From Archangium violaceum (lineage in GTDB: Bacteria > Myxococcota > Myxococcia > Myxococcales > Myxococcaceae): DNA of 64,000 bases. The notes below the pieces were generated by a model. It did no database searches. It saw only the letters and a program-made list of their open reading frames with translations, and was not told the DNA's origin. Positions 50,836 to 63,100 of the stretch are shown here, in pieces; the first letter of the stretch is position 1; the number at the start of each line of letters is the position of its first letter. A program made the position numbers and the translations under genes. Location of the stretch: assembly GCF_016887565.1 (NCBI RefSeq), contig NZ_CP069396.1, positions 3,127,001 through 3,191,000 on the forward strand, given 5' to 3'.

Positions 50836-52278
50836 CTATCCGCGAGGCCGGCTCTCCTCTTCCGCCTGGGAGTCACGCGGCGCCTCCACGCGCAGCCCTC
50901 CGGGACGGATGTGCATCGTGTAGGAGTCCTCCGCGTGCGCCGAGCCCCGCATCTTCACCACGCTGATGGTGCGGGAGAGCTTCTGCTCCTTCCGCTCGTA
51001 ATCGAGCGCGATGATGGCGTCGGGGATGGTGGAGAGGAACGGCGCCGTCGAGTCGTCTTGGTGGGTCGTGAGCGTCTGCGTGAGGAGCGCGCTGCGGCTG
51101 TGCTCCCGGACCAGGGACGCGAAACCGACCATGAACTGCCGGAAGCCCCTCGCGGACGTCGAGTGCGCGATGGACGAGATGCTGTCGAGCACGATGAGGG
51201 ACGGATCGAACTCATCCAGGCTCCTGCGCAGCTCCACCAGCAGATCCTCGGGGCTGGTGGCCTCGGGGTAGCTGCAGTCCATGCGCAACTTCCCCTGCTG
51301 CACGAACTCGTCCATGGGCAGCCCGACGCTCGCGAAGTTGCGCAGCAGGATGTTCCGCGTCTCCTCGAAGCCGTAGTAGGCCACGCGCTCCCCACGCGTC
51401 GCCCCGGCCCTGGCGTACATGCCGGCCAGGGTCGTCTTCCCACTGCCCGAGGGGCCCCGCAGCAGCGTGATGGAGTCCCGGAGCCAGCCCCCGTTCATCA
51501 TCGTGTCCAGCCCCGCGAAGCCGCTCGAGAACCGGCTCGTCGTGGGAGGCGCATCGTGGGCCCCCTGCACCCCGAACGGGAACACCATCAATCCCTTGCT
51601 GGTGATGGTGCAGGGGTACTCCCCCTTGTAGTGCGCGCTGCGCCGGTACTTGTGGACCTCGATGGTCCGCCGCCGCCGCTCGTCGTCCACCAGGTTGCGC
51701 AGGACGAGCACCACATCACACAGGAAGTCCTCGACGCCCAGCGTCGTCCGGGGGCCGTAGTCGTCCGGCGCTTCCGCCGTCACGAGCGCCGTCAGCTCGA
51801 GCCTCCGGAAGGTCCGCACCAGCTCGAAGAACTGGTGCCGGAGCCGCTCCTCGGACGGCTTCGGGCTGAACAGCGCGGTGGCGGAGTCCAGGACGATCGC
51901 CTGCGCGCCGAACTCGCTGACCGCGGCCTCGATGCGGTGCACCAGCGCGACGATGTCGTAGTCCCCCGTGACGACGGTGCTCGCGTCCATCGGGAGGGTG
52001 AGGTCCGTGAACCGGAGCTTGTCCGTCGCCAGCAGCTCCGAGGTGGCGAAGCCGAGCCCCTCTCCGGTGTCCTCGAGGTCCGCCGGGGTCTCCTCGATGG
52101 TGAACACCATCGTCTTGAGTCCCGAGCGGGCCAGGTGGCTGGCGATCTGCAGCGCGAGGATGCTCTTGGCCGCACCGCTCTTTCCCGTCAGGAGGGTGGT
52201 TCGTCCCCTCGGAAGGCCGCCGTTCGTGATGGTGTCGAGCCCGGGTACGCCTGTTGGCACCTTCTGCATCGTGGTCAT
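50836..52278 (-). CDS. KaiC-like double-domain ATPase
   Basis: A 480-residue RecA-like protein with two KaiC domains. Domain I has Walker A GKSGAAKS (residues 32-39) and the IEET pair. Domain II has GPSGSGKT (about 274-282), FEET, and FLSTIPDAIIALDYE, where the adjacent Ser-Thr corresponds to the clock phosphosites (S431/T432) of cyanobacterial KaiC. The following VVKMRGSAH matches the KaiC FKMRGSWH loop. Full KaiC is about 520 residues, so this is the standard architecture without a long tail. Its ATG overlaps the stop of the KaiB-fusion gene by 4 bp. Whether it oscillates is unknown; in many bacteria KaiBC serves stress or timing roles. Confidence 0.9.
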   Translation of the reverse strand: MTTMQKVPTGVPGLDTITNGGLPRGRTTLLTGKSGAAKSILALQIASHLARSGLKTMVFTIEETPADLEDTGEGLGFATSELLATDKLRFTDLTLPMDASTVVTGDYDIVALVHRIEAAVSEFGAQAIVLDSATALFSPKPSEERLRHQFFELVRTFRRLELTALVTAEAPDDYGPRTTLGVEDFLCDVVLVLRNLVDDERRRRTIEVHKYRRSAHYKGEYPCTITSKGLMVFPFGVQGAHDAPPTTSRFSSGFAGLDTMMNGGWLRDSITLLRGPSGSGKTTLAGMYARAGATRGERVAYYGFEETRNILLRNFASVGLPMDEFVQQGKLRMDCSYPEATSPEDLLVELRRSLDEFDPSLIVLDSISSIAHSTSARGFRQFMVGFASLVREHSRSALLTQTLTTHQDDSTAPFLSTIPDAIIALDYERKEQKLSRTISVVKMRGSAHAEDSYTMHIRPGGLRVEAPRDSQAEEESRPRG

Positions 52279-52991
52279 CGTCTCCGTTCGACCTGTACGT
52301 CATGCAGCAGGTCGGTCACCGCCTGGAGCTGGTCCAGGGCTCCCAGGTAATAGGCTCGTGGCGTGGGAAAGCGCTTGACGAGCGTGGGGGTGAAGGCAAT
52401 GCGGTCCTCGTCGAACGAGACGGGGCGCTCCTTCGAGAGGTCCACGACCGTGAGCCTCACCTGCGAGCGCTCGTAGCCCGCCAGCAGCGTCTCGAGCTTG
52501 CGGAGCGCGCGCAGCGAGGCGGGAGAGGCCTCGCTGATGTAGAGCGTGAGCTCGACCTTCACGCCTCGCTGGCCCTCTTCCTTCTGCTGGGTCCGCTGCA
52601 GGTGCTCCTTGGTCCTCACCAGCTCGCGGTCGCGTACCGGGGCGAGGATCTCGTGGATCCTGAAGAGGAACTTGTCCACGTCGATGGGCTTGCGGATGAC
52701 GCGGTAGCCCGCCGTGCCTTCCAGGTGGGAGGCCCCCGTGAGCACGAGGGACTCGCAGTTGAGCAGGCCGTTCTCCGCGGCCTGGGCCAGCATGCGCGCT
52801 CCGTCGAAGTCCGGGAGGTTGTAGTCCGTGATGACGAGGTGGAATTGCTCGCGGCGAAGCGCCTCGAGCCCCTCGCCCGCCGTGGCCGCGACGGTGACGT
52901 GGTAGCCGGCCGCCTCGAGCACCTCTTGCAGTGCCTCGCGGATGTCCGGGTCATCCTCGACGTACATCACCCGCAGTCCTAAAGACGCCAC
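52275..52991 (-). CDS. response regulator receiver fused to a KaiB-like domain
   Basis: A 238-residue protein from a GTG at 52991 (GGGAGAG 5 bp upstream). Residues 5-120 are a CheY-like receiver: acidic pocket EDD (12-14), phospho-Asp56 in LVITDYNLPD, Thr in VLTGASH, Lys101 in RKPID. A helix linker (125-145) leads to a thioredoxin-like KaiB domain (about 146-230) with VELTLYISEASPASLRALRK, VDLSKERP and AFTPTLVKRFPTPRAYYLG, the last matching the KaiB pattern TPTLVK..P.P...IIG. It is coupled to the KaiC-like gene. The fusion suggests phosphorelay control of KaiB-KaiC interaction. Confidence 0.85.
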   Translation of the reverse strand: MASLGLRVMYVEDDPDIREALQEVLEAAGYHVTVAATAGEGLEALRREQFHLVITDYNLPDFDGARMLAQAAENGLLNCESLVLTGASHLEGTAGYRVIRKPIDVDKFLFRIHEILAPVRDRELVRTKEHLQRTQQKEEGQRGVKVELTLYISEASPASLRALRKLETLLAGYERSQVRLTVVDLSKERPVSFDEDRIAFTPTLVKRFPTPRAYYLGALDQLQAVTDLLHDVQVERRR

Positions 52992-53314
52992 GTTCTCTCC
53001 CAACGGGGTGCCATGACGGTGTCGCCAGCGCGGCGCTGGCATACCAGAATTCGGGGCGCTGTTCGCTTGGCGCTGGGCGGCGTTCCCCCACCGGACCGCT
53101 TCGGGAGGAGTGTGCGGATTTCAACAACTCCTGCCGTGTTGGAGGCCCCGGAGAACGGTGATGGTGTGATTCTCGCATGAGCCCGTACTCGCGAGGAACT
53201 CCGTGATTCCGGGTGCATGAAGAGAATCGCCACCGATGACGATGTTGTGCGCTGATTGGCGCCCCCCTGACGTGCGCGCCGTGTCCGCGTGCGGTCCATC
53301 GTGATCGGAGGTCA
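52992..53314. other. 323-bp divergent intergenic region, no gene
   Basis: This region separates the KaiB/KaiC operon (minus) from the lipoprotein gene (plus) and must hold both promoters. No convincing -35/-10 pair, terminator or RNA was recognised. A ribosome site (GGAGG at 53307) precedes the next gene. Confidence 0.5.
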
Positions 53315-60100: not shown

Positions 60101-63100
60101 TGCGTTCATCGAGTCCTCCCTGCCCGAGGGCTCCTGGTACCTGGGCGCCGTCGTGGATCCGCTCGACGTCCGGCGTGAGCTCTTCGAGCGCAACAACACG
60201 CGCGCGGGAGACGTGATGGGGATTGGCGACCGGCCGGACCTCGTCGTCACGAAGGTGGTGGGGCCCGCGAGCGCGCGGCCGTACACGACCTTCACGGTGT
60301 CCGCCACGGTGTGCAATCAGGGCACCCAGCCGGGTAGCGCCGACGTGGGCTTCCTCCTCTCGCAGGACGAGATCCTGACCGTGTCGAGCTCCTCGGCCGA
60401 CCTGCCGATCAGCAGCGCCTCCGTGGACGTGCTCCTGCCGGGGGCGTGCGCCTCGGTGTCGGCGCAGGCCTACGCTCCGATCGCCGGTGTGGCCTGGCAC
60501 CTGGGGGCCGTCGTGGATCCGAACAACTCCCTGCTGGAGCTGTCCGAGAACAACAACGCGCGCGTGGGGGACCTGATGGGGATCGGCGACGGGCCGGACT
60601 TCATCGTCACGAAGGTGACGGGCCCGGTGAACGCGAGGCCGGGGGAGACCGTCACGCTGTCCGCCACGGTGTGCAATCAGGGCACCACGAGCGGCAGCAC
60701 GGACGTGATGCTGCTGCTGGACACCTCGCCGAACCCGCCGCAAGGGGGGGGCCTCCCGCTCGGGACCGTGTCCGTGGGGATGCTGGAGGCGGGGAAGTGC
60801 ACCACGGTGTCCCTGCGGACCAGCTTCCCCGAGGGCTCCTGGTACCTGGGCGCGAAGAGCAATCCGTTTCTCTCCCAGGCGGAGCTCGTCGAGAGCAACA
60901 ACGTCCACATGAGGGGCCCCCTGGGCGTGGGGACCGGGCCGGACTTCGTCATCCAGGAGGTGACCGCGCCGTCGAGCATGATACCGGGCCACTCCTTCTC
61001 CGTGTCCGCCACGGTGTGCAACCAGGGCTTCGCGGAGGGCCTCACGGACGTGGGCTTCTTGGTGTCGTCCGACACGGTGCTCACCGGCCCCGGGGAGACG
61101 AACGAGGGGGGAGACATCTTCCTCGGTTCGTCCTCCCAGGTCTTCCTGGCGGCGGGACAGTGCGCCCCGGTGTCGCTGTCCGGCTGGTTGCCCTACGCGC
61201 TCTACGACTTCCCGGGGACGTATTACCTGGGAGCCGTCGCGGACGTGTTCAAGCAGGAGCTCGAGCTCGTCGAGCTCAACAACGCCTCCGTCTCGGCCCC
61301 GATGGGCGTGGGCTTCGACCCGGACTTCGTCGTCCAGGAGGTGACGGGTCCGGCGACCGTGCGCTCGGGGGAGTCGTTCCGCGTGACCGCCACGGTGTGC
61401 AACCAGGGGACCTGGGACGGCTTCACGGACGTGATGTTCGTGCTGTCGTCCGATCCGGACATCTCCCTGCCCTCGGGGTCTCCGTCGCAGGGGGGAGACG
61501 TGTTCCTCGGGAATGTGTCGCTGGGCGTCCTGCAACCGGGACAGTGCGTTCCCGTGGAGTGGGCGGGCGGCAGCTCGCTCCAGGGGCCTTGGTACCTGGG
61601 CGCCATCGTCGACCCGGGCAACTTCCAGCGGGAGCTCATCGAGAGCAACAACGCACGAGCGGGCGTCCGGATGGGGTTCGGTGATGGGCCGGACTTCGTC
61701 GTCACCCGGGTGACGGGACCGGGGAACGTGAAGCCGGGTGACGCCTTCACCGCGTCCGCCACGGTGTGCAACCAGGGCAACACGAGCGGCGCCACGGACG
61801 TGGCCGTCCTCCTATCCCGTGACGAGGTCATCCTTCCGCCGGGCACGCCGCTCGCGGAGTGGGACGTGCTGCTCGGGAGCGCGGGCGTGGGCACGCTGGA
61901 GCCGGGGCAGTGCGCCACGGTGCCGGTGTCCGCGCAGGCTCCCTCCTCGGCCGAGGGGCTCTGGTATCTGGGAGCCATCGTCGACCCGGCCAATGGTCAG
62001 CAGGAAGTGCTCGAGCACAACAACACGTCCTCGGGCAGCCCGCTGGGCATCGGCGATCGGCCGGACTTCTTCGTCACGGCGGTGAAGGGGCCCGCGAGCC
62101 GAGTACCGGGAGTCCTCTTCACCGCGTCCGCCACGGTGTGCAACCAGGGCACCGTGAGTGGTTCCACGGACGTGGCCCTCCTGCTCTCCCCGGATGCGGT
62201 CATCACCCTGCCGGGGCAGCAGGGTGGGGGAGACACCCTCGTCGGGAGCGCGGTCGTGGGTCCGCTGGAGCCGGGGCAGTGCGCTCCGGTGCCGATGTCG
62301 GCCCAGGCCCCCTCCCTGCCCGATGGGGCGTACCACCTGGGCGCCATCGCGGACCCGGCCAACGGTGTGCAGGAGTTCGTCGAGAGCAACAACGCGCACG
62401 CGGGTGACCTGATGGGGGTGGGTCATGCGCCGGACCTCATCGTCACGGCGGTGACGGGGCCGGTGAGCGTGAGGACGAGTGATTCCTTCACCGCGTCCGT
62501 CACGGTGTGCAACCAGGGCACCGAGTGGGGTCATCCGCGCGTGGCTGTCTTCGTGTCTCCGGACCCGGTCATCACCGGACAGGGGCCGTCGTCCGATGAC
62601 ATCCCCGTGGGCACCTACTACGTCGGGAGCCTGGGACCCGAGCACTGCGACACGGTGCAGGTGCAGGCCATCCTCGACGCCATGCCCGAGGGCACGTACA
62701 CGCTGGGCGCGGTGGTGGACCCGGACAACGAGGCGTTGGAGTTCATCGAGAGCAACAACGCGCACGCGGGCAGTCCGGTGAGGATCGGCAACGGGCCGGA
62801 CCTCGTCATCCAATCGGTGACGGGACCGGCGAGCGTGGAGCTGGGGGCGTCCTTCCAGGCACTCGTCACGGTGTGCAACCAGGGGACCGAGGCATCCAGC
62901 ACGACGGTTGTGCTGCTCGCGCTGTCAGCGGACGAGGTCATCGCCCCTCCGGGTCAGGGTGACTTCTGGCCTGGCAATACGTCCGTCGGTCCGTTGCCTG
63001 GAGGCCAGTGCGTCACGGTGCCGGTGTCCGCGCAGGCCTCCGTCGCCCACGGGCTGAGCGAGGGCGTGTATCACCTGGGGGCCTTCGTCGACCCGTATGA

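Follow-up and report, generated by a model that had tools for sequence, protein, structure and literature searches.

A receiver-KaiB fusion protein encoded with a double-domain KaiC in Archangium: a conserved, co-inherited variant of KaiBC signalling and a proposed KaiA-independent mechanism

How signals reach KaiC without KaiA and CikA, and which role KaiC plays in non-photosynthetic bacteria, are questions addressed by a locus in the soil myxobacterium Archangium, whose 13.2-Mb genome is assembled as a single contig. In the window (the whole 64,000-nucleotide stretch of DNA that was analysed), a sequence-only reading had proposed that a receiver and a KaiB-like domain are fused in one protein, encoded together with a KaiC-like ATPase. 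Pfam searches bore this out: the N-terminal receiver (PF00072, Response_reg, E = 1.8e-14) and the C-terminal KaiB domain (PF07689, E = 1.3e-9, 38.1 bits versus a cut-off of 27) both scored above curated cut-offs and lie in the same frame (Table 1).

Table 1. Features of the receiver-KaiB (RR-KaiB) fusion gene and the adjoining kaiC, in window coordinates.
Feature	Position	Strand	Description or evidence
RR-KaiB fusion gene	52275..52991	-	238 aa, GTG start; Pfam Response_reg and KaiB share one frame
Receiver domain, aa 7-118	52638..52973	-	Acidic pocket; D56, T85, K101; short beta4-beta5 segment, no alpha4 helix
Predicted phospho-acceptor Asp56 codon	52824..52826	-	Invariant alignment column
Extended alpha5/linker helix, aa 105-138	52578..52679	-	AlphaFold2 models and alignment; connects receiver to KaiB
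KaiB domain, aa 146-231	52299..52556	-	Pfam KaiB, PDB profile search, hhalign, AlphaFold2
Prolines P202/P209/P211	52359..52388	-	Counterparts of KaiB P58/P65/P67; invariant in all fusions
ATGA stop/start overlap, RR-KaiB/kaiC	52275..52278	-	4 bp, read from sequence
kaiC, 480 aa, CI and CII	50836..52278	-	PF06745 1.1e-89, PRK09302 above cut-off; no C-terminal A-loop/tail
CI Walker A GKSGAAKS	52162..52185	-	Motif table
CI KaiB-docking loop (B-loop), MDASTVVTGDYDI	51952..51990	-	Motif kept in KaiB-linked KaiCs
CII Walker A GPSGSGKT	51433..51456	-	Motif table
Phosphosite pair S416-T417 (S431/T432 equivalent)	51028..51033	-	Motif table

The GTG start codon of the fusion gene is preceded by GGGAGAGAAC, with a GGGAGA(G) ribosome-binding site, and the GGGAGA-GTG arrangement was retained in two orthologues; an alternative start, that of the longest open reading frame, is an ATG at 53042. 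Scans for promoters and terminators at the locus, which are uninformative in a high-GC genome, gave no match. The 4-bp overlap with kaiC, also noted in the sequence-only reading, recurred at all eight RR-KaiB/kaiC junctions read, one of which belongs to a different family and lies on a contig that ends just inside kaiC. Orthologous fusions showed 39-96% identity, dN/dS values of 0.02-0.34 across both domains indicated purifying selection, and all fusions formed one clade (support 100/99). A chance origin of the fusion was thereby excluded. Two separate genes read as one through a gene-calling or assembly error would have a parallel in the MAG G081, whose kaiC contains frameshifts and whose copy of the fusion gene is frameshifted between the domains. 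This explanation, whose probability is negligible, was refuted by the conservation of a single open frame in eight genomes, several of which are single-contig assemblies.

Identification of the C-terminal domain as KaiB, as opposed to a plain thioredoxin, was upheld by profile searches. When a profile of the fusion C-terminal domains was compared with all PDB chains, KaiB structures ranked first (5e-14), SasA matched at 1e-3 and no ordinary thioredoxin was among the matches. Together with the complete absence of cysteine from the domain, this result ruled out a plain thioredoxin. Comparison with a profile of canonical bacterial KaiB by hhalign gave a probability of 99.2. The domain is diverged, occupies a long branch in the tree and scored 32 bits against the TIGR02654 circadian KaiB equivalog, under its cut-off of 145. 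AlphaFold2 predicted the order beta-alpha-beta-alpha-beta-beta-alpha, which is the topology of the fold-switched, KaiC-binding state. Mean pLDDT was 79.5 with an alignment of fusions only and 89.2 after addition of canonical KaiBs, with block pLDDT values of 84-93 over the KaiB region. Since AlphaFold is by default biased toward the fold-switched state of KaiB, the predicted topology is weak evidence on the resting fold.

The partner KaiC likewise had the double-domain make-up ascribed to it. It contains two PF06745 domains and scored 418 bits against NCBIfam PRK09302 (cut-off 408); both RecA-like domains carry a Walker A motif and a catalytic Glu pair, and the predicted Ser-Thr autophosphorylation pair is present. 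Its score of 325 bits against the TIGR02655 circadian KaiC equivalog was under the cut-off of 546. The CI Walker A motif has Ala in place of the usual Gly, and a comparable GTAGSAKT is common in KaiB-linked KaiCs elsewhere. As GxxGxAK[ST] is usual in such KaiCs, decay of this motif, with loss of function, was ruled out.

In a study of myxobacterial KaiC proteins, the KaiB-binding loop was found to be missing and kaiB genes were few (PMC11832031). The Archangium genome encodes eight KaiC-family proteins and one KaiB domain, and only the fusion-linked KaiC combines the CI docking loop, with GDYD at aa 105-108, and the Ser-Thr pair. In all seven other KaiCs the loop is missing, and the two-domain paralogues among them additionally lack the CI Glu-Glu pair. 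Judged by this motif, the fusion-linked KaiC is an exception to the published pattern. In a KaiC tree that covered the six two-domain paralogues and left out a three-domain KaiC, fusion-paired KaiCs clustered with KaiB-linked KaiCs of other bacteria, while the six paralogues, all without KaiB partners, formed a separate clade. One KaiB-linked KaiC is thus set apart from many KaiB-less myxobacterial KaiCs, which can guide the choice of genes for studies on timekeeping. The three-domain protein of the same genome (739 aa, three tandem KaiC domains; G000:C1:10181330-10183402, seen in L023/L030/L031) showed no B-loop motif, and a histidine kinase domain is encoded about 1.7 kb downstream of it (10179317).

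As the sequence-only reading had stated, KaiA was missing; a genome-wide search yielded no PF07688 match. Bacteria other than cyanobacteria ordinarily lack KaiA. The tail of the fusion-linked KaiC proteins extends 20-32 residues past KMRGSxH, versus 54-56 residues in KaiCs that bear A-loop-like segments, so that of the parts of a KaiABC clock both the KaiA gene and the KaiC A-loop were lacking. Because KaiC lacks the KaiA-binding A-loop and tail, docking of KaiB is likely to be its main regulator. A self-sustained circadian oscillator, with the receiver substituting for KaiA or CikA as input device, could draw on the Ser-Thr pair, the catalytic residues and the fold-switch prolines of KaiB, none of which is missing, and rhythmic fruiting of M. 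macrosporus has been discussed in connection with KaiC by its authors (PMC11832031). Besides the missing KaiA and A-loop, an identity of only 37% to cyanobacterial KaiC and the hourglass behaviour of the best-studied KaiA-less KaiBC system (PMC10076222) argue against an oscillator, which we consider very improbable.

Co-inheritance was analysed in a sample of 195 Myxococcota genomes, 18 of which encode KaiB and nine the fusion. Eight of these nine also encode an orthologous KaiC (at least 64% identical), whereas no orthologue was found in the 186 genomes that lack the fusion (Fisher p = 2e-13, with phylogeny ignored). For the seven genomes common to both trees, fusion and KaiC showed an identical branching order. 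Genes that flank the pair vary between genomes, and a genus-mate without the fusion (G001) also lacks the orthologous KaiC. These results indicated that the fusion and its KaiC are a real, conserved and co-inherited variant of KaiBC signalling, for which a mechanism can be proposed.

Adjacency alone does not prove binding: the KaiB of Legionella adjoins KaiC and yet may not bind it. Certain KaiB members are stabilised in one fold and do not switch (PMC11551320). The latter provide a precedent for a scenario in which binding of the KaiB domain to KaiC has been lost and the fusion and KaiC are co-expressed parts of a stress response that act separately. Genome G035, which retains the fusion and in which no KaiC was detected at E<1e-20, fits this scenario. 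The probability of the scenario is nevertheless low: KaiB-linked KaiCs, those paired with the fusion among them, retain the docking-loop motif, which the genome's seven other KaiCs have lost, and co-occurrence is strict, with matching trees.

In the receiver, D13, D56, T85 and K101 were invariant among the fusions. Fold, acidic pocket, phospho-accepting Asp, Thr/Ser and Lys of a response regulator were all found, with alpha4 as the missing element: T85 and K101 are 16 residues apart and the AlphaFold2 model contains no alpha4 helix. By its residues, the phosphorylation pocket is intact. Among near relatives, the receiver was the most constrained part of the fusion (dN/dS 0.02-0.05). Top Foldseek rows for the fusion model were receiver-type matches only, a result in which the receiver dominates the score and the KaiB half is left unaddressed. 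Single-domain receivers that are related to the fusion receiver and share its short spacing are widespread across Myxococcota and are its likely source; examples (L009-L015 and G000:C1:2298203) have the 16-residue Thr-Lys spacing, with no room for alpha4. The linker is shorter in the fusions of G002, G004 and G035, in which the long alpha5 helix of the Archangium version is not conserved.

We propose, at about even probability, that the pair is a KaiB-KaiC module independent of KaiA, with KaiB as the output of a response regulator controlled by an unlinked histidine kinase. No histidine kinase gene was found beside the fusion-kaiC pair in any locus read of the fusion's own family, and the genome encodes at least 150 histidine kinases (150 of 342 candidates scored). 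A kinase encoded elsewhere would phosphorylate Asp56, and the resulting change in the receiver would be relayed via the alpha5/linker helix to the KaiB domain, where it would alter how easily the thioredoxin-like fold that binds KaiC is adopted or made accessible on the CI ring. Docking would in turn alter KaiC ATPase and Ser416/Thr417 autophosphorylation, by analogy with the KaiA-less KaiBC of Rhodobacter sphaeroides, with a KaiA-free, KaiBC-type switch or timer as the net result. Docking, its control by phosphorylation, the sign of that control and a role in timing or switching are all inferred. More tentatively still, aspartyl phosphorylation might set the conformation of KaiB and so gate the KaiC ATPase timer directly, with a post-translational output that involves neither DNA binding nor a second messenger. 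An environmental sensor kinase may then act directly on the KaiC timer or switch; if so, the KaiC timer is the immediate target of a two-component kinase. Through its covalent link to KaiB, the receiver would offer a definite input wire in which one residue, Asp56, can be tested, and would make a metamorphic protein the output of a response regulator.

The main rival to this mechanism reverses the flow of information. In such an output adaptor, KaiB would be permanently thioredoxin-like and would dock the receiver on KaiC, as the KaiB-like domain of SasA docks a kinase; the state of KaiC would then govern exposure of the receiver to kinases or phosphatases, so that the receiver reports that state, perhaps by acting as a phosphate sink or by binding a partner. 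The wide occurrence in Myxococcota of single-domain receivers with this short form and the prediction of a thioredoxin-like fold with both alignments are consistent with an adaptor, as is the PxPR motif past the conserved proline, which resembles SasA as well as KaiB. The profile match is, however, far better to KaiB than to SasA, and all three fold-switch prolines are retained. In KaiB, cis-trans switching of P58, P65 and P67 limits the speed of fold switching (PMC11551320). Moreover, neither a downstream output domain nor a dedicated partner gene is conserved next to the pair. An adaptor function was considered less likely than control of KaiB by the receiver.

Among the known systems closest to the Archangium pair is the KaiBC system of Rhodobacter (Cereibacter) sphaeroides, which also lacks KaiA and in which KaiB adjoins a double-domain KaiC; there, ATP hydrolysis is accelerated when KaiB docks on the CI domain, which yields an hourglass (PMC10076222). 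R. sphaeroides KaiB, about 90 aa long, stands alone and has no receiver, whereas in Archangium KaiB is fused to one. R. sphaeroides KaiC, unlike that of Archangium, has a long coiled-coil tail, and its operon (L109) includes a signalling kinase, whereas no kinase is adjacent to the Archangium pair. SasA, the KaiC-binding histidine kinase of cyanobacteria, similarly joins a KaiB-like domain to a two-component part through which KaiC is read or acted upon, but this part is a histidine kinase and not a receiver, and the fusion matched SasA weakly. The statement in the sequence-only reading that KaiB and receiver-like output parts are separate in cyanobacteria consequently needs qualification by SasA, in which a KaiB-like domain and a histidine kinase are fused. 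SasA homologues outside cyanobacteria are without the KaiB-like domain (PMC5520375). Elongated cyanobacterial KaiBs (about 250 aa) are similar in length to the fusion, but their N-terminal extension of about 150 aa has no recognisable domain or homologues outside cyanobacteria, whereas that of Archangium is a receiver (PMC5520375). Receiver-fold domains also meet KaiB in the cyanobacterial clock, as the pseudo-receivers of CikA and KaiA; those reside on separate proteins, whereas the Archangium receiver has an intact pocket and is covalently linked to KaiB (PMC12632262).

In Proteobacteria, operons of the types kaiC-kaiB-histidine kinase(-receiver) and kaiBC-GGDEF/EAL are known (PMC3164672, PMC3899966), such as BRADO1478-1481, a KaiC-KaiB-kinase operon with a separate receiver gene (PMC3899966). 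In these operons, as in L104/L105, the components of the Archangium pair are likewise clustered, with the receiver as a separate gene or as the tail of a hybrid kinase and not fused to KaiB. As KaiC-KaiB-kinase operons are common and some include a separate receiver gene, the novel step at this locus is the fusion. No description of a receiver-KaiB architecture was found in the open-access literature, but unremarked examples are probably present in databases.

Outside Myxococcota, KaiB was detected in 36 of 399 Pseudomonadota genomes. None of the Pseudomonadota KaiB loci read contained a receiver-KaiB fusion, and most unread frames were too short to fit one. A tblastn search of plasmids returned separate KaiBs and separate receivers and no fusion, and a pattern scan of genome contigs gave two true relatives and two false matches (L064, L065). 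Since sampling covered Myxococcota and Pseudomonadota, restriction of the fusion to Myxococcota is provisional. Loci L104 and L105 (genomes G104 and G105) are kaiC-kaiB-PAS hybrid kinase operons of the same family with diverged KaiBs, which were placed, with weak support, as sister to the KaiBs of the fusions.

The fusion gene of G035 (L040, 8059-11602), the sole one with neither an adjacent kaiC nor a KaiC detected elsewhere in the genome, lies directly upstream of apparent imuA/imuB genes (a RecA-fold protein and a Y-family polymerase, by sequence judgement). In G081 (L134, contig C211, 2-3716), the orthologous kaiC is followed after about 150 bp by a gene whose domains read as GAF-PAS-PAS-GGDEF-EAL. 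This arrangement echoes the kaiBC-GGDEF/EAL operons (PMC3164672) and hints at a possible c-di-GMP output in that genome only. In the window, a gene for a serine beta-lactamase-family hydrolase (PF00144; 49779-50825, minus strand) starts about 11 bp past the kaiC stop; the hydrolase gene is found 12 bp past kaiC in G005 as well and is non-adjacent in other genomes. Further along, at 61594-62523, a 369-bp tandem repeat occurs in 2.5 copies with an in-frame unit length. This region encodes a large repeat protein on the plus strand, and its very long antisense open reading frames resemble GC artefacts.
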